Of a stretch of DNA of 64,000 bases, positions 25,732 through 62,250 are shown piece after piece. Under the pieces are notes generated by a model that was given only the letters and a program-made list of their open reading frames with translations, did no database searches and was not told where the DNA came from. Source of the stretch: Burkholderia metallica (lineage in GTDB: Bacteria > Pseudomonadota > Gammaproteobacteria > Burkholderiales > Burkholderiaceae). The stretch spans positions 248,001-312,000 of the forward strand of contig NZ_CADFDB010000001.1 of assembly GCF_902832845.1 (NCBI RefSeq). The letters are read 5' to 3'. Both the position numbers and the translations under genes were made by a program. Positions within the stretch are counted from its first letter, which is position 1; each line of letters opens with the position of its first letter.

Positions 25732-26652
25732 TCACTCCCGTCGAATCAGCTCGAGACCTTCGCGGTAGGTGGTCACCTTGAACGCGGGGAACCGTTGCTT
25801 GAACTTCGTCGAATCGAACAGGTTGTCCTGCTCGTAGCGGGGTAGAAGCTCCCGGATTTCGCGTACCTGAGGGGAGAAGAGCCCGGCGGCCAGGAAGGCC
25901 CATTTCCCGACGATCGAATACGCAGGCTTTCGTCCGAATGCGTTGCTGGCCATGTCGATGAACTCCCGATAGGTCGGCCGGTCGTCGCAACACGGTAGAT
26001 GCCAGGTCTGCCCGAATGCATCCGGCGTATTGGCGAGCGTCGCGAGCGCACGGCTCGCGTCGGGCGTCCAGATGAGCGTGCGCCGCGTGTCGTCGCGCAA
26101 CGGCACTTTCGGCTTCTTGCCTGCCTTGAGCTTGTCGATGACCAGCGCGTTCGTGAAGCTCTGGGTCTTGCCCGGGCCATAGAATTCGGGCGCCCGCCCG
26201 ATCAGGACGGGAATATCTCCGCGCGCCATTTCTTCGAGCACCATCGACGCCATTGCCGCGCGCACCTTGCCCTTGCGGCCGACCGGCGCGAACGGTGTCG
26301 ACTCCGTCTGCAGCCGGTTGTTCTGCGGGTACATGTAGGTGTTGTCGAAATAGGCGAACCGCGCGCCTTCCGCGCGGCACGCATCCAGCGCGTTCTTCAA
26401 CATCACGGGAAACTGCGTTTCCCACAGCTGCGTGTCCGGCGGCAGGCCGGCCGTGAAATAGACGATGCTGCTGCCTTTCACCGCCTGTGCGGTCTGGCTC
26501 GCATCGAGCAGATTGGCCGAGACCAGGCTGTCGGTGTCGTTGACCTTGCGCGGATTGCGGCTCACGAGGCGTATGTCGCCCGTGTGGACGCGTCGCAATT
26601 CTCTCGCCAGTTCGGTCGCGATCTGGCCATTTGCCCCTAATATCGTCTGCAT
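25732..26652 (-). CDS. NAD(P)-binding epimerase/reductase-like SDR protein
   Basis: A 306-residue extended short-chain dehydrogenase-like protein. The dinucleotide-binding motif is ILGANGQIATELARELRR, and NTYMYPQNN lies where the active-site Tyr region is expected. The classical YxxxK is degenerate, so the protein may bind NAD(P) without the usual catalysis, or act as an atypical reductase. It is the leftmost member of the MerR-linked block: a MerR-type promoter with a perfect operator lies 44 bases upstream. That suggests a stress-induced reductase of electrophilic carbonyls or quinones, as inference. Confidence 0.78.
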   Translation of the reverse strand: MQTILGANGQIATELARELRRVHTGDIRLVSRNPRKVNDTDSLVSANLLDASQTAQAVKGSSIVYFTAGLPPDTQLWETQFPVMLKNALDACRAEGARFAYFDNTYMYPQNNRLQTESTPFAPVGRKGKVRAAMASMVLEEMARGDIPVLIGRAPEFYGPGKTQSFTNALVIDKLKAGKKPKVPLRDDTRRTLIWTPDASRALATLANTPDAFGQTWHLPCCDDRPTYREFIDMASNAFGRKPAYSIVGKWAFLAAGLFSPQVREIRELLPRYEQDNLFDSTKFKQRFPAFKVTTYREGLELIRRE

Positions 26653-26695: not shown

Positions 26696-26726
26696 AGGCT
26701 AACCTTGAAGGCAAGTTCAAGGTCAA
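26696..26726 (-). promoter_or_regulatory. MerR-type promoter P1 (19-bp spacer) of the SDR gene
   Basis: On the minus strand TTGACC and TAGCCT are separated by exactly 19 bases, the over-long spacing typical of MerR-activated promoters. Between them sits ACCTTGAA-N6-TTCAAGGT, a perfect 8+8 inverted repeat. The predicted start of transcription is about 36 bases upstream of the ATG at 26652. Of the five related promoters in this block, this has the most symmetrical operator. Confidence 0.75.
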
Positions 26727-26969
26727 GGGGCCGACGAATGCGCCGGTGACATTCAGTCTCGTTGACGCGCGACTGGTCGATTGAATCTCTCTAACGGAGT
26801 GATAGGGAAACGCAGAACCAGATAAATAGTTCGGCAAACTGAATAAAATTCGGATCGTCTTGCGATGGCTGTATGGCAAGCAGTAAAAGGATTCTGCCGG
26901 ACAACCGCCTGATCAGTCTCAAGCCGGCGACGTGCTCGTCGGTGCAGATCTACTCCGTCACAACTTCGC

Positions 26970-27000
26970 TTGACATTCAACTTCACTTCAATCCTAGGAT
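26970..27000 (+). promoter_or_regulatory. MerR-type promoter P2 of the exported DJ-1 gene
   Basis: TTGACA at 26970-26975 and TAGGAT at 26995-27000 flank a 19-base spacer. The spacer carries TTCAAC and CTTCAA half-sites aligned with those of the neighbouring promoters. The start of the exported DJ-1 gene is 94 bases downstream. The 26.65-27.09 kb gap holds this promoter and P1 back to back, and no gene. Confidence 0.7.
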
Positions 27001-27093
27001 CTCGTCAGTGACGTTGCGCGCCGTTGTTACGTGTGCGCTGCCCTGGTTGACGGGTGTTGTGAAACAGCCCCGACTCATGTGAGGAATTTGGAA

Positions 27094-27900
27094 ATGTTCA
27101 AGCGTTGGTTCGCCAGACACTGGCTTCTTGCCATCATCGTTTCAATGTTGACGGGCGGTTACGCGTATGCCGCGCAGACTGGACAGAGCGACGGCGCGGT
27201 GCAGCCGGGCGACAGGATTCTGGTCGTGATGACCAACCACGCCCGGTATCCCTCTCGATCGGATACGACCGGACTTTGGTTCACTGAACTGACGCATTTC
27301 TACGACGTCGCCGAGGCGGCCGGACTGCAGATGGATTTTGCGAGCCCGGCAGGCGGGGAAGTGCCGATCGACCAGCGCAGCCTGAAGTCCTTCTACCTGG
27401 ACGATTCGGCACGCGCACATCTGGCAGATCCGGCGTTCATGGCGCGATTGAAGACGACGTTGCCGGCTTCCGCCGTGACTCCATCCAGCTACAAGGCGAT
27501 CTACTTCACCGGTGGACACGGAACGTTGTGGGACTTCGCGGATAGCGCGGCATTGAAATCCGTCAGTGAGCAGATCTATCGCCAAGGCGGCATTGTCTCG
27601 GCGGTTTGCCACGGGGTCTCCGCACTGCTGCCGCTGCAGGACGATGGCGGGAAGTCGCTCGTCGACGGCGTGCCCGTGACGGGATTCTCCGATATGGAAG
27701 AAACGCTGTCCGGCATGAAGTCCCAGGTGCCCTTCTTTTTGCAGGATTCGCTCGTGAGCCGTGGTGCGCGCTACCAGAAGGCGTTGCTTCCCTTTACGTC
27801 TTATGTCGTCAGTTCCGATCGGATCATTACCGGGCAGAACCCGCAGTCGAGCAAGGAAATTGCCGAGGCGGTGGTCAAGCGACTGAAGGAAATGAATTGA
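27094..27900 (+). CDS. exported DJ-1/PfpI-family protein (Hsp31-like)
   Basis: A 268-residue DJ-1/PfpI protein with an N-terminal signal peptide or anchor (residues about 1-27, ending AYA-AQ). The domain has the Hsp31/HchA-like pattern: TGLWFTELTHFYDVAEAAG, IYFTGGHGTLWDF, and nucleophile elbow SAVCHGVSALL with Cys172 and His173. Relatives act as glyoxalase III, chaperone or deglycase. The ATG at 27094 has GAGGAA 8 bases upstream. A cytosolic paralogue lies at 32463-33146, so the locus carries the same activity on both sides of the membrane. The next gene is an exported hydrolase, probably co-transcribed. Confidence 0.83.
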   Translation: MFKRWFARHWLLAIIVSMLTGGYAYAAQTGQSDGAVQPGDRILVVMTNHARYPSRSDTTGLWFTELTHFYDVAEAAGLQMDFASPAGGEVPIDQRSLKSFYLDDSARAHLADPAFMARLKTTLPASAVTPSSYKAIYFTGGHGTLWDFADSAALKSVSEQIYRQGGIVSAVCHGVSALLPLQDDGGKSLVDGVPVTGFSDMEETLSGMKSQVPFFLQDSLVSRGARYQKALLPFTSYVVSSDRIITGQNPQSSKEIAEAVVKRLKEMN

Positions 27901-28044
27901 CCTGCAGCCGACAGGAGCGGGTCAAGCAGCGGAACGGGGCGCGTTTTGATGAGTCCGCGCAACGGGGTACGGAGCGCGCAGTCGTTCGCGGTCCGAGTAT
28001 CGAGTGGTCGGTGTCACCGCTTTCGATTACCAAAGGAGGCTGTC

Positions 28045-29043
28045 ATGAGCGGCAAGGAAGAAGTCGACTGCATCAACCAATCACGTCGTGAACTGATGAT
28101 CGGGGCCGGTGCGGTAGCCGCCGCGTCGATGGCGCTGCCTTTATTCGCTTCGAGCGGCGCGGCGAACGCTGCGACAACCCGGCATCCGTTCCATCCGTCG
28201 GAAGGCGACGCGGGCGGGGGCAACAAGATCGTGACGAAGGATGGCGTCGAGATTTTCTACAAGGACTGGGGAAAAGGTCAGCCGATCGTCTTCAGTCACG
28301 GTTGGCCGTTGTCGGCGGATGACTGGGACGCTCAAATGCTGTTCTTCGTGGAGCATGGATATCGAGTGATTGCCCATGATCGCCGTGGGCATGGGCGATC
28401 GACGCAAACAGCCGATGGCAATGACATGCATCACTACGCTGCCGACCTGGCGGCCCTGACCGAAGCGCTCGATATCAGAAACGCGATCCACATCGGGCAT
28501 TCGACCGGGGGCGGAGAAGTGGCTGCCTACGTGGCGCGCCATGGCATGAAACGGACCGCCAGGATCGTTCTGGTCAGTGCGGTACCGCCGGTCATGGTCA
28601 AGAGCGAGCGCAATCCCGGCGGCACGCCGATCGAGGTCTTCGATGGTTTCAGGAAACAGCTCGCCGCGAACAGGGCGCAGTTCTATCTCGATGTTCCGTC
28701 CGGGCCGTTCTACGGGTTCAACCGGGCGGGAGCGAAAGTGTCCGACGGCATCATTCGCAATTGGTGGCGCCAGGGCATGATGGGCGGCATCAAAGCCCAG
28801 TACGATTGCATCAAGGCCTTCTCGGAGACGGACTTCACCGCGGACTTGAAGAAGATCACGCAGCCGGCGCTGGTGTTGCATGGCGATGACGACCAAGTGG
28901 TGCCCTATAAGGATGCCGGCATGCTGTCTGCCAAGCTGCTCGGGAACGCCAGGCTGACGATCTATCCGGGCTATCCGCACGGGATGTTGACGACCCATGC
29001 GGATGTCATCAATGCGGACATTCTGAAGTTCATTCGGAGCTGA
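28045..29043 (+). CDS. Tat-exported alpha/beta hydrolase (non-haem chloroperoxidase-like)
   Basis: A 332-residue alpha/beta hydrolase with a twin-arginine signal: [10 protein letters not shown], then a hydrophobic stretch ending ANA-A. The mature domain starts near [15 protein letters not shown]. The catalytic triad is visible: Ser153 in GHSTGGGE, Asp283 in HGDDDQVVP and His312 in GYPHGM. The surrounding sequence resembles cofactor-free haloperoxidases or perhydrolases, which are esterases able to use peroxide. The ATG at 28045 has a perfect AAAGGAGG 6 bases upstream. It follows the exported DJ-1 gene by 144 bases and ends at a strong terminator. Its cytosolic twin is encoded opposite at 29137-29967. 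Confidence 0.85.
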
Positions 29044-29049
29044 AGATCG

Positions 29050-29081
29050 AGGCAGCCTCTCTCGAGAGAGGCTGCCTTTTT
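29050..29081 (+). terminator. strong intrinsic terminator after the Tat hydrolase gene
   Basis: A 28-base perfect palindrome (AGGCAGCCTCTCTC followed by its complement, 29050-29077) ends in TTTTT at 29077-29081, six bases after the stop codon. It closes the exported DJ-1/hydrolase transcript. It lies between two convergent paralogous hydrolase genes and may also limit transcription from the other side. Confidence 0.92.
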
Positions 29082-29136
29082 CCGGCGTGGTTCCGATCGG
29101 TTTACTGCAATTCCGGATCAGCTTTCGAGGCTTTGG

Positions 29137-29967
29137 CTACCCACGCAAGAACGCGAGCAGATCGGCGTTGATCGTGTCGGCGTTGGACGTCGGCATGCCG
29201 TGCGGAAAGCCCTTGTAGGTCTTCAGCGTACTGTTCCTGGCGAGCTTCGCCGACAGCAGGCCGGAATCGGCATAGGGGACGATCTGGTCGTCGTCGCCGT
29301 GCATGACGAGCACCGGAATCGTCGTGCTCTTCAGGTCCTCGGTGAAGTCGGTTTGCGAGAACGCCACGATACCGTCGTAGTGTGCCTTGGCGCTGCCCAT
29401 CATGCCCTGGCGCCACCAGTTCCAGATCACGCCTTGCGACGGCTTCGCGCCGGCACGGTTGTAGCCGTAGAAGGGGCCCGCCGGCACGTCGTAGTAGAAC
29501 TGCGCGCGATTCGCTGCGAGCTGGGCCTGCAGGTTGTCGAACACGTCCTTCGGCAAACCACCCGGATTGCTTGCGGTCTTGACCATCAGCGGCGGTACGG
29601 CGCTGATCAGCACGGCCTTGGAGACGCGATCTTCGCCGTGGCGGGCAACGTAGTGGATGACTTCACCGCCACCCGTGGAATGGCCAACATGAACCGCACC
29701 CTGCACCCCGAGGTGGTTGACCACTGCCGCGACGTCGTCGGCATAGTGATCCATGTCATGGCCGTCCCACACCTGGCTGGATCGTCCGTGTCCCCGGCGA
29801 TCGTGCGCGATGACGCGGTAGCCGTGCGACAGGAAAAAGAGCATCTGGGCATCCCAGTCGTCCGCGCTGAGCGGCCAGCCGTGATGGAAGAAAATTACCT
29901 GTGCATCGCGCGGGCCCCAGTCCTTGTAGAAGATCTGAACGCCATCCTTCGTCGTGACGTAAGCCAT
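29137..29967 (-). CDS. cytosolic alpha/beta hydrolase (non-haem chloroperoxidase-like)
   Basis: A 276-residue alpha/beta hydrolase without signal peptide. It is closely related to the Tat-exported copy beside it: both share [49 protein letters not shown] and HGDDDQ.VPY. The Ser-Asp-His triad is intact. The ATG at 29967 is chosen over the GTG at 29976 because AAAGGAG lies 9 bases upstream. Its MerR-type promoter (P3) overlaps the upstream region of the divergent merR gene, leaving a leader of roughly 280 bases. It may be a perhydrolase, esterase or haloperoxidase. Confidence 0.86.
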   Translation of the reverse strand: MAYVTTKDGVQIFYKDWGPRDAQVIFFHHGWPLSADDWDAQMLFFLSHGYRVIAHDRRGHGRSSQVWDGHDMDHYADDVAAVVNHLGVQGAVHVGHSTGGGEVIHYVARHGEDRVSKAVLISAVPPLMVKTASNPGGLPKDVFDNLQAQLAANRAQFYYDVPAGPFYGYNRAGAKPSQGVIWNWWRQGMMGSAKAHYDGIVAFSQTDFTEDLKSTTIPVLVMHGDDDQIVPYADSGLLSAKLARNSTLKTYKGFPHGMPTSNADTINADLLAFLRG

Positions 29968-30251
29968 GATCAGCACTCCTTTTCAATGTGAAGATTGAGA
30001 TTCAGTCGCGTTCCTGACAAATTTTGTTGCTCGCTGGTGGGCTGCTCCTTTTATGATGGTGGCGGATAAGGCGGCAACGTTGCCACGGGGCAGGTCGCGC
30101 TGCCGGAAGTGCGCAGGCCGGCGTCGCCATTCGCTCGGGCCTGGTCGGAACGATGCGCTCCTTTTGTCGAGACAATTTGAAATGATCAAGCGACCGCGGT
30201 GCGGTTGCTTGCCGAAGAATCCGTCGTGTTGCTCGTCGTCGTCATGGAGCA

Positions 30252-30282
30252 ACTTTAGGATTAAAGTGAACGTTAATGTCAA
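30252..30282 (-). promoter_or_regulatory. MerR-type promoter P3 of the cytosolic hydrolase gene
   Basis: On the minus strand TTGACA and TAAAGT are separated by exactly 19 bases, with ACTTTA-N4-TAAAGT symmetry overlapping the -10 side. It reads almost identically to P2 on the other side of the cluster, including TTGACATT and the later CTTYAATCCTA block. It lies about 20 bases from the GTG start of the divergent merR gene, so a single bound regulator could control both. Confidence 0.72.
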
Positions 30283-30301
30283 TCGTTTTTTGGGGGGTAG
30301 A

Positions 30302-30751
30302 GTGAAAATCGGAGAGTTGGCGAAGCGCACGGGTCTGACGGCTTCACGCATCCGTTTTTACGAGGCCGCCGGCTTGATAAGGGTGGTGGAGCGTAACGTG
30401 AACGGCTATCGGGAGTATACGCCGGAAGCGGAGTTGATTCTGGGGATGATCGCTATCGCGCAGCATGCCGGGTTCACGCTTGAACAGATGCGGCAGTTGT
30501 TGCCCGTTGGTCCCGGCGCCTGGGATCATGGTGCGTTGCTGGACGCGCTCAAGCAGAAGGTGGTCGAGATCGATAGTGTCCGCAAGCGTCTCGACCAGAG
30601 CCGCGCGCAACTGCTGGTTGCGATCGAGAGCATCGAGAACAAGCCGGACGGAATCGAATGCGCGGACAACAAGAAGCGCGTGCTCGACCGTCTCCGTGAA
30701 GCAGGCATTACGCCGGATTTCAGCAAGCTGGGCGACTCCGGCGCTGGCTGA
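30302..30751 (+). CDS. MerR-family transcriptional regulator 1
   Basis: A 149-residue MerR regulator. The N-terminal winged HTH is KIGELAKRTGLTASRIRFYEAAGLI, then YREYTPEAELILGMIAIAQHAGFTLEQM. A long dimerisation helix follows (about residues 80-120). Only one cysteine is present (in DGIECADN), so the paired-cysteine metal or [2Fe-2S] ligands of MerR, CueR or SoxR are missing. A single-cysteine redox sensor or small-molecule sensor is possible. The start is the GTG at 30302 after a GGGGGG tract; no ATG fits. It is divergent from the cytosolic hydrolase gene. Confidence 0.85.
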   Translation: MKIGELAKRTGLTASRIRFYEAAGLIRVVERNVNGYREYTPEAELILGMIAIAQHAGFTLEQMRQLLPVGPGAWDHGALLDALKQKVVEIDSVRKRLDQSRAQLLVAIESIENKPDGIECADNKKRVLDRLREAGITPDFSKLGDSGAG

Positions 30752-30932
30752 GCCCCGTGGCGATCGCGCTGCTTGCTCGATCGAGGGAACGTCGAACAGC
30801 TTATCCGTCCCGGTCCTTGCGTGGTACGACAAATGTCCGCGCAAGGAACGAACGGGTTGTCCGATTTGGCACGGGATTGGTACGACCTCGCGGCGACCAA
30901 AAGAGCCGCCGCGCCGACTCGTCGTTGAGTGC

Positions 30933-30963
30933 TTGACCTTAAAGTCATATTCAGTCTTAGAGT
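30933..30963 (+). promoter_or_regulatory. MerR-type promoter P4 of the decarboxylase-like/merR2 operon
   Basis: TTGACC at 30933-30938 and TAGAGT at 30958-30963 flank a 19-base spacer that starts TTAAAG and contains ATTCAG where the other promoters have CTTYAA. The operon's ATG is 73 bases further on. The 285-base gap after merR1 contains nothing else recognisable. Confidence 0.68.
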
Positions 30964-31036
30964 GATTGCTACCGGCTGTTGATCGGTATGCCTTCCGAGG
31001 CACGCCCGACGGCTCAATCACAAGAAGGTCAGGAAT

Positions 31037-31945
31037 ATGGACAAGCGGTTTACAGAGGTCGAGTTCGGCGCGCACAAGGTCGAGGTGCCCGCTGGCGGGT
31101 ACTACGACCGTTACCGGATGAACCCGAATCTCGACGAGGTCGCACAGGATCCTGCGGCGGGCAATATCGACTTTTTTCGCAGGATTCCAAAGCGGCTCGT
31201 CACCTCTACTGTCGGTCCGACCTGGGCGCCCAACTTTTACTATCGCTCGAGCAATGTGCAACTGCTGTTCCTGGCGCCGGTCGACCGGTTGCGGGCGATG
31301 TTGCGAGCGCCGCTCGAGCCGCTGAGAGCATTTCCGGGCCACGGGCTGGTGGCGTTGACCTTTTTCTCCTATTCGGTCTGTGACAACGATCCATACGACG
31401 AAGTATCTGTCGCCGTGGTGATCCGTCGGCCGGGCGCGCGTGGGTCGCATGCGCTGGAACTTCTCGACTCCATCCGGCGGCGGAATTTCTTCGCCCATGT
31501 TCTCGCGCTGCCCGTGACGACGGAAATCGCTCGGGTCCGTGGTCTGTATGGGTACCAGTTGCCGAAGTGGCGAACGGATATCGGATTGAACATCGGCGCA
31601 GACATTTCAGCCGCCATCGCCGGCCCTGGCGGCAAGCCCGACCTGACCTTGAGCGCGCCGCTTCCCGCTTTGCGCGATGTCCCGTCGCAGTCGCATATGG
31701 GATCGGCAACCATGATCAACATGATCGACGGCGAATGGCACCAGACCTTGGTCCAGACCAATGTGTTGTCGTTCGCCCAGCGCCTCTTTCCACGAGACGT
31801 CAATCTGACACGGCACGGCGGCCCCTTGAGCCAGTTGCTTGATGGACTCGGGGCCTCCACGGTGCTTCGCATGGACGTGGTCAAAGACGCGCAACTGGTC
31901 CTGAACATGCCAACCCGGCTAGATGCTTTCGCGCCACGATCATGA
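31037..31945 (+). CDS. acetoacetate decarboxylase-family protein
   Basis: A 302-residue protein of the acetoacetate decarboxylase (ADC) superfamily, longer than the roughly 245-residue clostridial enzyme. Family-like features include LFLAPVDRLRAML near the N-terminus and GYQLPKWRTDIG, where the lysine is a candidate for the Schiff-base residue. The adjacent Glu-rich environment of true ADC is not obvious, so the reaction may differ; several ADC-like proteins are aldolase-dehydratases or bind other oxo acids. It has no signal peptide. It is translationally coupled to merR2 by an ATGA overlap and driven by promoter P4. Confidence 0.72.
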   Translation: MDKRFTEVEFGAHKVEVPAGGYYDRYRMNPNLDEVAQDPAAGNIDFFRRIPKRLVTSTVGPTWAPNFYYRSSNVQLLFLAPVDRLRAMLRAPLEPLRAFPGHGLVALTFFSYSVCDNDPYDEVSVAVVIRRPGARGSHALELLDSIRRRNFFAHVLALPVTTEIARVRGLYGYQLPKWRTDIGLNIGADISAAIAGPGGKPDLTLSAPLPALRDVPSQSHMGSATMINMIDGEWHQTLVQTNVLSFAQRLFPRDVNLTRHGGPLSQLLDGLGASTVLRMDVVKDAQLVLNMPTRLDAFAPRS

Positions 31946-32415
31946 AGATAGGGGATCTGGCGGAGCGCACGGGATTGACCCCTTCGCGCATCCGCTTTTA
32001 TGAACGCATTGGGCTGTTGACCGCGGTCGAGCGCCAGCCGAACGGCTATCGGATCTATTCGGCCGACGCGGTGCTGGTGCTCGGGCTGGTCGCAACCGCG
32101 CAAAAGGCAGGCTTCAGCCTGGACGAGATCCGCATGTTGCTGCCGCCCGACCTTGCGCAATGGCAGCGTGGTGCGCTACTGGACGCGCTCAGCCACAAGG
32201 TGCGGGACATCGAAGCGATGGAGGTGCGGCTTGCGCAGAACAAGCGGCATCTGATGGCGTTGATGGCCGAGGTCGCGGCCAAGCCCGAGGATATCGATTG
32301 CACCGCCAACGCAACGCGGCTGCTGTCGCAGATGCAGTTGGGCGATCCGGGCAGCACCGCCCGAACGCAGGGCGCCGTCAAAGTGAAGCGGCGCCGATCG
32401 GTCCGAAACAGCTAG
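31942..32415 (+). CDS. MerR-family transcriptional regulator 2
   Basis: A 157-residue MerR regulator and a paralogue of regulator 1. Both share KIG.LA.RTGLT.SRIRFYE, a YR.Y...A.L.LG..A.AQ.AGF...... MLLP/QLLP stretch, and ...GALLDAL.. KV..I. The C-terminus ends in a basic tail (VKVKRRRSVRNS). Its single cysteine, in EDIDCTAN, aligns with the one in regulator 1, suggesting a shared sensing residue. The start is fixed by the ATGA overlap with the decarboxylase-like gene. It probably feeds back on P4 and on neighbouring promoters. Confidence 0.85.
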   Translation: MKIGDLAERTGLTPSRIRFYERIGLLTAVERQPNGYRIYSADAVLVLGLVATAQKAGFSLDEIRMLLPPDLAQWQRGALLDALSHKVRDIEAMEVRLAQNKRHLMALMAEVAAKPEDIDCTANATRLLSQMQLGDPGSTARTQGAVKVKRRRSVRNS

Positions 32416-32462
32416 GCGGCGACGTGCGTATCGATGCGTTGATATCCGGGGCCTGCTTGCCG

Positions 32463-33146
32463 TTACACGAGCGCTGCGACCTGCTCGGCGGTTGCCTTTG
32501 CTGATTGCGGATTCTGGCCCGTCACCAGCCGGCCGTCGGTGACCACGTTCGACGTGAATGGCAGCAACGCCTTCTCGTAAAGTGCACCACGTTGCACCAT
32601 CTCTTCTTCCGCGTTGTAGGGCACTTTCTTCGCGACGCCAGCCAACACCTCCTCAACCCATGAATAGCCGGTGACGCGGCGGCCCGCTACGAGCAATGCC
32701 CCGTTGCTGAGTTTCGTATTCAGTAACCCGCAATAGCCGTGACAGACGGAAGACACGATGCCGCCGCGCTCATAGATGTCTCGCGTGAGCCGCTGGAGTC
32801 CTGCGTCATCGGGGAAATCCCACATGACAGCGTGGCCGCCCGTGAAGTAAATCGCATCGAAATCCGCAGGATCGATCTGGTCGGGGCGTGCCGTGGTGGC
32901 CAGAAGTTTCTGGCAGTCGGGGTCGTTTAACCACGCTTTCACGGAGGCGTCGGCGAGGGGCCATTTCAGCGAGCGCGGCTCTAACGGAGACGGGCCGCCC
33001 TTGGGGCTGACGAGACGCTGGCCATACCCTTTCTCGGCGAATACGTGCCAGGCATGCGTCAGTTCCGATAACCACAGCCCGGTGGGTTCGGACTGATCGG
33101 CGTAGTTGGCGACATTGCTGACGACGTGAAGTATGCGTTTGGTCAC
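32463..33146 (-). CDS. cytosolic DJ-1/PfpI-family protein (Hsp31-like)
   Basis: A 227-residue DJ-1/PfpI protein without signal peptide, paralogous to the exported one at 27094. Shared landmarks are TGLW.SELTHA, IYFTGGHAVMWDFPDD, SSVCHGYCGLL with Cys135 and the following His, then ALYEKALLPFTSNVV and TGQNPQSA. A glyoxalase III, deglycase or chaperone function is plausible. The open frame reaches the GTG at 33173, but GAGGGG 9 bases before the GTG at 33146 supports the later start. Promoter P5 lies about 90 bases upstream. It is convergent with merR2, leaving 47 bases. Confidence 0.82.
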   Translation of the reverse strand: MTKRILHVVSNVANYADQSEPTGLWLSELTHAWHVFAEKGYGQRLVSPKGGPSPLEPRSLKWPLADASVKAWLNDPDCQKLLATTARPDQIDPADFDAIYFTGGHAVMWDFPDDAGLQRLTRDIYERGGIVSSVCHGYCGLLNTKLSNGALLVAGRRVTGYSWVEEVLAGVAKKVPYNAEEEMVQRGALYEKALLPFTSNVVTDGRLVTGQNPQSAKATAEQVAALV

Positions 33147-33236
33147 GTTGGACGTCCCCTCTTCATGGGTCACGAATGAGATTCATGGACATGTCGTTCT
33201 TTTGTCTGATGGCGCAAAGCACGCGTGCCACCGCAG

Positions 33237-33267
33237 ACCATAACCTTAAAGCGAAGTCGATGGTCAA
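33237..33267 (-). promoter_or_regulatory. MerR-type promoter P5 of the cytosolic DJ-1 gene
   Basis: On the minus strand TTGACC and TATGGT are separated by exactly 19 bases; the spacer holds CTTTAAGGT in the position of the shared right half-site. It is the fifth promoter of this pattern within 6.6 kb. No other feature is clear in the gap between the DJ-1 gene and the decayed ORF at 33404. Confidence 0.72.
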
Positions 33268-62081: not shown

Positions 62082-62250
62082 CATGGCGCGACGAAATGAG
62101 CGCGCAACGATTCCGCTTCCGACGCACATATGTCCATGGCACGCAGGAAGCGAATCCGGGATTCTCAACCCCCATCGGGAGACCCGGAGCCCTGAGCGGA
62201 CATCCATGCGGTTGCGCACCGGCCCCGTGTGGATGTCCGCTGATTTTTTT
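62082..62250 (+). ncRNA. candidate structured small RNA
   Basis: About 170 bases with TATAGT at 62070-62075 and TTGACA at 62043-62048 upstream (spacing 21, so a non-ideal promoter). The transcript would fold into three stems. Stem 1 pairs CGCTTCC 62114-62120 with GGAAGCG 62146-62152. Stem 2 pairs CCGGG 62156-62160 plus TCTC with GAGA plus CCCGG 62179-62187, with a C-rich loop. Stem 3 is the terminator. No ORF on this strand ends just before the terminator, so it is not the tail of a gene. The C-rich loop of stem 2 could base-pair with ribosome binding sites. Family unknown. Confidence 0.55.
62195..62250 (+). terminator. intrinsic terminator of the small RNA
   Basis: AGCGGACATCCA at 62195-62206 pairs perfectly with TGGATGTCCGCT at 62230-62241, and TTTTTTT follows at 62244-62250. 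It is oriented for + strand transcription. On the minus strand, transcription from the terpene synthase gene would meet no U-run. Confidence 0.92.

Follow-up and report, generated by a model that had tools for sequence, protein, structure and literature searches.

The window analysed here is a 64-kb stretch (64,000 nucleotides) of the genome of Burkholderia metallica (contig NZ_CADFDB010000001.1, positions 248,001 to 312,000), and our subject is a gene cluster within it that encodes two regulators of the MerR family, MerR1 and MerR2, together with several enzymes. An original prediction, made from the DNA letters, had placed five promoters with identical 19-bp spacers around these genes and had described them as a complete and local stress regulon. 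A search of the window with the pattern TTGACM-N19-TANNNT (TTGAC[AC]-N19-TANNNT) yielded exactly five matches, and no others, at the coordinates and strands predicted, against a chance expectation of 0.09; in 100 shuffles of the window the maximum was one match and none of them reached five. We treat these sites, P1 to P5, as predicted promoters rather than as mapped transcription starts.

P1 (26696..26726, minus strand), with a 19-bp spacer and a dyad at 26702-26723, would serve the gene of an SDR-like NAD-dependent epimerase/oxidoreductase of 306 amino acids (aa) (25732..26652, minus; Pfam PF01370, 7.6e-16), and P2 (26970..27000, plus) the genes DJ1a and ABHa, encoding a DJ-1/PfpI protein of 268 aa (27094..27900, plus; PF01965, 2.9e-9) and an alpha/beta hydrolase of 332 aa (28045..29043, plus; PF00561, 2.1e-29). 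P3 (30252..30282, minus) is predicted to serve a second alpha/beta hydrolase gene, ABHb (277 aa; 29137..29970, minus; PF00561, 4.1e-30), and the divergent merR1 (149 aa, GTG start; 30302..30751, plus) begins 20 bp past the end of P3, such that autoregulation is possible. P4 (30933..30963, plus) would serve the gene of an acetoacetate-decarboxylase-like (ADC-like) protein of 302 aa (31037..31945, plus) and merR2 (157 aa; 31942..32415, plus), which overlaps its 3' end, and P5 (33237..33267, minus) a second DJ-1/PfpI gene, DJ1b (236 aa; 32463..33173, minus; PF01965, 3.2e-15). The proposal of a reductive and carbonyl-type gene set is supported.

At spacer positions 11-16, P1 and P2 read CTTCAA, P3 and P5 CTTTAA and P4 ATTCAG, in agreement with the earlier description of CTTYAA in four sites and ATTCAG in P4. 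The dyad of P1, also noted earlier, is perfect with an 8+6+8 arrangement, ACCTTGAA-N6-TTCAAGGT, and 4 or 5 of the 8 outer dyad positions are paired in P2-P5. Summed over the five sites, the outer pairing amounts to 27/40, a value reached by 0/20000 spacer shuffles, and shifted registers gave 16 at most. MerR-family sites are described in the relevant passages of PMC5045206 as extending over 22 bp and centred 8 bp from the -35 box, within spacers usually of 19-20 bp. The dyad centre of the window operators likewise lies 8 bp from the -35 box, and the 19-20 bp spacer holding a dyad that is a feature of MerR-family target promoters is present here.

On a genome-wide scale the loose pattern is not enriched (16 matches versus 22 in the reversed control), and it was rejected as a predictor at that level; the signal therefore resides in the clustering and in the dyad. 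The shared 22-bp dyad has the consensus TTGACMTTNAASTTNACTTNAAKSTTANNNT. A refined dyad pattern, with up to 3 mismatches allowed, occurs at seven places in the 7.55-Mb genome and at none in the reversed control. Four of these are window sites (P4 exceeds 3 mismatches and is hence not among them); contig 2 carries two of the others, and contig 8 the remaining one. All seven adjoin regulon genes, and by coordinates no such place lies near any of the 8 other MerR paralogues of the genome. On contig 2, the operator pair precedes a DJ-1 gene (81% identity to DJ1b) and an ADC-like gene (81% identical) that is followed by a saccharopine-dehydrogenase-like (SacDH) gene, with no MerR match there. The contig 8 operator lies between a gene for an old yellow enzyme (OYE)-type NADH:flavin oxidoreductase (PF00724, 1.4e-51) and merR3, the product of which is 52% identical to MerR2. 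With three further operators on contigs 2 and 8 the regulon is not local, and its completeness in the window is not supported either, given the OYE operator on contig 8 and the fact that, of the 20 loci retrieved from other genera, 13 have OYE as the gene called at a site. The second ADC-SacDH/DJ-1 cluster (contig 2, 462039-465315; L028 6040-9316), with its two operators and no MerR gene, neighbours a TetR gene and a coniferyl-type aldehyde dehydrogenase gene, and its place is occupied by merR1 and merR2 in several relatives, for example in L081 and L084.

Conservation was examined in samples of the genus, the family and the class, supplemented by named records. MerR matches at 1e-25 or better occur in 52 of 65 genus genomes, our own included, and matches at 1e-35 or better in 86 of 299 family genomes, distributed over 6 of 25 genera. 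A site matrix trained solely on the eight sites of our own genome was used to scan 73 loci (977 kb) and, at a score of at least 20, it detected 203 places against one in the reversed control; counted among the 203 are the eight sites used for training, the matches on six duplicate contigs and some near-palindromes scored a second time on the reverse strand. Outside the window, but with contigs 2 and 8 of the same genome included, the TTGACM and TANNNT elements are separated by 19 bp in 141 matches, by 18 bp in 25, by 17 and 15 bp in 5 each, by 21 bp in 3, by 20 and 23 bp in 2 each, by 22 bp in 1 and by 16 bp in none. Locus L030 had been excluded from the outset as a duplicate of L075 and, after six more duplicates were dropped, 67 loci remained with 205 places scoring at least 18. 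The first downstream gene is ADC-like at 28 of them, OYE at 26, DJ1b at 22, ABHb at 20, merR3 at 17, merR2 at 11, SDR at 4, merR1 at 3, DJ1a at 1 and another gene at 7; the 66 places lacking a called downstream gene include some opposite-strand echoes and starts missed by the simple gene caller.

The individual window sites have counterparts as well. P1-type sites precede SDR orthologues in L075, L076, L077, L036, L183 and L186, P2-type sites are kept before DJ1a in L075 and L076, and a P3-type site is found at the corresponding position next to merR1 in 14 loci (L075-L078, L080-L084, L089-L091, L095 and L096); orthologous sites for P4 and P5 are also present in relatives. Conservation upstream of orthologues had been set beforehand as a test of the motif, and the sites do recur, mostly with the 19-bp spacer. 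More generally, in relatives that include alpha- and gammaproteobacteria the operator and a MerR gene are accompanied by some of the OYE, ADC-like, hydrolase, DJ-1, SDR and aldehyde dehydrogenase genes, the selection differing between loci; in L155 (G673), OYE and MerR genes occur at a site. Beside the cluster in three loci, operator-like sites (L076 3027, L077 14101 and L078 10198) lie near genes resembling [2Fe-2S] or molybdopterin aldehyde oxidases, possibly a further branch of the regulon that is not seen in the window.

In the genus sample, the refined pattern was found in 54/65 genomes and its control in 0/65. A site is present in all 52 genomes with a MerR match and in 2 of the 13 without one (Fisher 8.7e-11, kinship ignored); in part this co-occurrence follows trivially from the frequent placement of sites next to MerR genes. 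Of the two exceptions, G047 and G010, the latter has a site (L187) at which a more distant MerR, 43% identical to MerR3, neighbours an OYE gene. Among the matches listed we chose 20 stretches of 10-14 kb, mostly away from MerR genes, and in 20/20 the site adjoins at least one regulon family, with no MerR match in 18/20.

These distant sites bear on whether there is one regulon or instead two to three independent ones whose boxes resemble each other, in which MerR1, MerR2 and MerR3 would each serve their own neighbours in response to different signals. Three such MerRs are kept in some genomes, where they belong to separate lineages in the tree, and the sites are not identical, the one at OYE reading for instance GTTATCGT and the one at ADC CTTAGAGT. 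However, ten sampled genomes have a single MerR match (G003, G006, G011, G025, G031, G033, G037, G039, G041 and G044), its gene lying some tens of bases from a site, and they keep operators at ADC-SacDH, SacDH or DJ-1 genes distant from any MerR match, so that one MerR would have to serve distant operators; in the two of the ten whose MerR loci were fetched, G011 and G031, the neighbour is OYE. Moreover, MerR1, MerR2 and MerR3 differ little or not at all at residues S15-E21 of the DNA-binding domain. We regard separate regulons as unlikely.

The system also occurs on plasmids. MerR matches were present in 19 plasmid records, of which ten were fetched, and the operator is found in 9/10 of these loci. 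In 8/10 the annotated neighbours come from the regulon set in varying combinations (OYE, acetoacetate decarboxylase (family), coniferyl aldehyde dehydrogenase, alpha/beta hydrolase, type 1 glutamine amidotransferase (DJ-1) and NAD epimerase), the hosts being Shinella, Agrobacterium, Roseateles (organism unverified in the record), Pantoea, Ideonella, Paraburkholderia, Paracoccus and B. stagnalis. The region in the Cupriavidus metallidurans CH34 plasmid record carries no gene annotation. A MerR gene, the operator and an OYE gene are all present in Shinella zoogloeoides and apparently also in CH34.

With regard to the enzymes of the window, DJ1a and DJ1b share 46% identity, and ABHa and ABHb 68%. 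Judged by eye, DJ1a has a hydrophobic signal-like N-terminal segment and ABHa a twin-arginine-like N-terminus (SRRELM), and no signal segment was seen in ABHb or DJ1b; an apparently Sec-like and Tat-like pair (27094-29043) thus mirrors the signal-free ABHb (29137-29970) and DJ1b (32463-33173) under the same operator type. Intact orthologues of ABHb are 87-99% identical and broken ones less so, among the relatives fetched, DJ1a has orthologues only in L076 and, split into two pieces, in L075, and ABHa gave a single partial match (L080). The label ADC-like rests on the orthologues: PF06314 matches 7 of the 10 members of alignment A2 (best 3.5e-9) but gives no match to the window protein by itself. 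Lysine K177, within the motif YxLPKW, is invariant in the alignment. No relative of solved structure was obtained for this protein by sequence search, in which CdiI alone appeared at an E-value of 0.74, nor was there an NCBIfam match, and AlphaFold modelled it with intermediate confidence (mean pLDDT 70.3). In L078 (5597-8467; G007) the ADC-like gene is split by two genes that, by eye, resemble istA/istB of the IS21 type. Rfam, at gathering scores, returned nothing near the long P3 leader; elsewhere in the window it placed ncS035, Burkholderia sRNA 35, at 62083-62250 on the plus strand (192 bits).

MerR1 and MerR2 are 47% identical, each matches PF13411, PF00376 and PF09278 above cut-off, and the family fold features, an N-terminal winged helix-turn-helix and a dimerisation helix, are present in both. 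A53 and Q54 are invariant in MerR alignment A1. In a tree for which rows L041 and L079 had been dropped beforehand, and labels taken from the best BLAST match, 72 subfamily rows separate from the 8 own-genome paralogues (91/86), with a warning from the tool of long branches; merR3 forms one group and the merR1 and merR2 labels do not group. MerR1, MerR2 and MerR3 each contain exactly one cysteine, C120. The claim that the two MerRs lack paired cysteines is thus correct for the window pair, but the single conserved cysteine had been overlooked, and this renders a thiol-based signal plausible. Among 64 distinct aligned sequences, the window pair included, 62 have Cys in the C120 column, one has Arg there and an outgroup sequence has a gap, and C120 is present in 10/10 plasmid MerRs. 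An AlphaFold model of the MerR2 monomer, built with 14 sequences (mean pLDDT 81.3, about 74 in the C120 region), has helices at 3-10 and 14-22, a long helix at 76-113 and a C-terminal helix at 120-133. Since a new helix begins at residue 120 in this model, the thiol would occupy the N-terminal end of a helix, a position that usually lowers the pKa of a thiol.

Two further explanations turn on this cysteine. In the first, the MerRs would respond to the non-covalent binding of a small metabolite, such as a phenylpropanoid or aromatic-acid intermediate, C120 would be structural and the enzymes would constitute a degradation pathway instead of a stress response. Coniferyl aldehyde dehydrogenase and acetoacetate decarboxylase (family) are indeed annotated among the neighbouring genes in five loci, and MaoC/acyl-CoA dehydrogenase neighbours occur in one. 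Nevertheless, no obvious pathway emerges from DJ-1 and OYE together with hydrolases in duplicate. Beyond the long helix the proteins have just a short C-terminal tail, modelled as helix 120-133, and Pfam matched no additional domain for ligand binding in MerR1 or MerR2; furthermore, C120 is nearly invariant in the alignment while the remainder of the tail varies; we consider a catabolic regulon doubtful. The second, a metal or SoxR-type regulon in which CueR-, CadR- or SoxR-like sensors read the operators, or MerR1-3 bind metal via C120, is much less probable still. The CueR model is the top NCBIfam match of both MerR1 and MerR2, and C120 aligns with CueR C120 at the metal-loop position. Nonetheless, the metal, SoxR and NmlR models all score far under their curated cut-offs, neither protein has a second cysteine, the other loop cysteine of CueR (C112) faces Ala in MerR2 and a gene resembling a metal transporter lies behind none of the five window operators.

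We favour, with a probability of about 70%, a MerR-type activation regulon in which MerR1-3 read one shared dyad and switch on enzymes that clear carbonyls and electrophiles, the MerRs themselves being probably thiol-based activators. The operators, their conservation, the gene content held in common and the conserved cysteine are direct observations; for binding, activation, inducer class and thiol chemistry we infer the following scheme. The shared 22-bp dyad would be bound by dimers of MerR1, of MerR2 and of the remote paralogue MerR3; it takes up the whole 19-bp spacer, which is overlong for a sigma-70-like promoter, and the promoter would be weak at rest. An activated regulator would then underwind the spacer, as is established for other MerR proteins, and turn transcription on; activation by DNA distortion is described for the family in pertinent passages of PMC5045206 and PMC9909328. 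As sensor we consider the thiol of C120 likely; it would begin the C-terminal helix, in the region that forms the ligand loop of related metal sensors. The induced enzymes, namely OYE, the ADC-like protein with its SacDH partner, alpha/beta hydrolases, DJ-1 proteins and SDR, with a coniferyl-type aldehyde dehydrogenase beside them, would reduce, hydrolyse, decarboxylate or repair reactive carbonyl or electrophile products, and this set points to reactive carbonyls and other electrophiles as targets. The location of merR2 behind an operator-promoter would provide positive feedback, and merR1 and merR3, starting beside an operator, may be autoregulated.

Several observations weigh against this interpretation. 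The window operator resembles other MerR-family operators and part of the sites might therefore be targets of another MerR. The regulator is rare at the class level (4/369 genomes, own included, at 1e-25 or better), the 18-bp spacer recurs in the 25 matches mentioned above, merR1 in L112 has a degraded site only, and a Pseudoalteromonas plasmid carries a close MerR with neither a site nor such neighbours. ADC, DJ-1 or hydrolase genes are lost or broken in several relatives, and in 3 of the 20 chosen loci (L174, L175 and L177) a SacDH-like gene alone remains at the site. As to the cysteine, Arg replaces C120 in one MerR2 (L091), and a second Cys occurs at column 80 in 16/64 and at column 136 in 13/64 MerR sequences, as well as in 2/10 plasmid MerRs, so the relatives are not all one-cysteine proteins.

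Tentatively, and at somewhat less than even odds, we suggest that these proteins form a previously undescribed MerR subfamily with one-cysteine electrophile sensing at the metal-loop position, controlling a dispersed carbonyl-defence regulon that includes the signal-bearing and signal-free pairs DJ1a/DJ1b and ABHa/ABHb. The statement that no counterpart had been described agrees with our finding no description of the regulon in a search that covered the titles and opening abstract lines of open-licence PMC papers; in a study of the B. cenocepacia response to H2O2 and hypochlorite, the six terms searched for are absent from the main text (PMC2830190). Operator, regulators, targets and a candidate sensor residue make this a sharply defined and testable regulon of environmental and opportunistic bacteria, and one that would bring function-poor families (ADC-like, DJ-1 and hydrolases) under one signal.

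Among known systems, CueR has two cysteine ligands in its C-terminal loop, C112 and C120, and SoxR has four C-terminal cysteines for [2Fe-2S]. The window system shares with CueR, MerR and CadR the fold, a 22-bp-class dyad centred 8 bp from the -35 box, a 19-20 bp spacer and the alignment at C120; it differs in the single cysteine, in scores far below the family cut-offs and in targets that resemble detoxifying enzymes instead of serving metal transport. MerR1 and MerR2 were rejected as CueR proteins (61.3 and 65.6 versus 147.4 bits; a single C120, with C112 facing Ala) and also as SoxR proteins (41.4 and 39.0 versus 116.9 bits; a single Cys and no [2Fe-2S] cysteine cluster), although SoxR likewise belongs to the MerR family and has an overlong-spacer promoter and an oxidative theme. 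The NemR-nemA-gloA system of Escherichia coli is a further electrophile-type regulon with an old yellow enzyme, but NemR is a TetR-family repressor whereas a MerR activator is proposed here. The nemRA operon has been linked with methylglyoxal in PMC3739934.

The nearest precedent is AdhR/NmlR, a MerR with one essential cysteine that controls carbonyl-detoxifying genes and yraA. The yraA product belongs to the DJ-1/PfpI family, and the AdhR/NmlR operator presumably differs from that in the window. MerR-family control of carbonyl detoxification, at adhA, yraC and yraA in Bacillus subtilis and adhC-estD in Haemophilus and Neisseria, is described in the relevant sections of PMC4776306, together with the requirement of a single conserved cysteine for the formaldehyde response and the up-regulation by B. 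subtilis AdhR of yraA, there called a cysteine proteinase. Both systems thus combine a MerR-family regulator, one conserved cysteine and targets that detoxify carbonyls, or in the window system probably do so, but the AdhR/NmlR cysteine lies at 52/54 rather than at 120, adhC and estD are not seen among the window cluster genes, and the OYE/ADC/SacDH/hydrolase set is unlike that of AdhR/NmlR. Membership of MerR1 and MerR2 in NmlR/AdhR was rejected (NCBIfam NmlR 38.8 and 44.4 bits versus a cut-off of 175; no Cys at 52-54). What appears to be new here is the target set of a MerR regulon and the differently placed conserved cysteine and, if C120 is the sensor, a metal-loop position would have been turned into a thiol electrophile switch by a route distinct from that of NmlR/AdhR.

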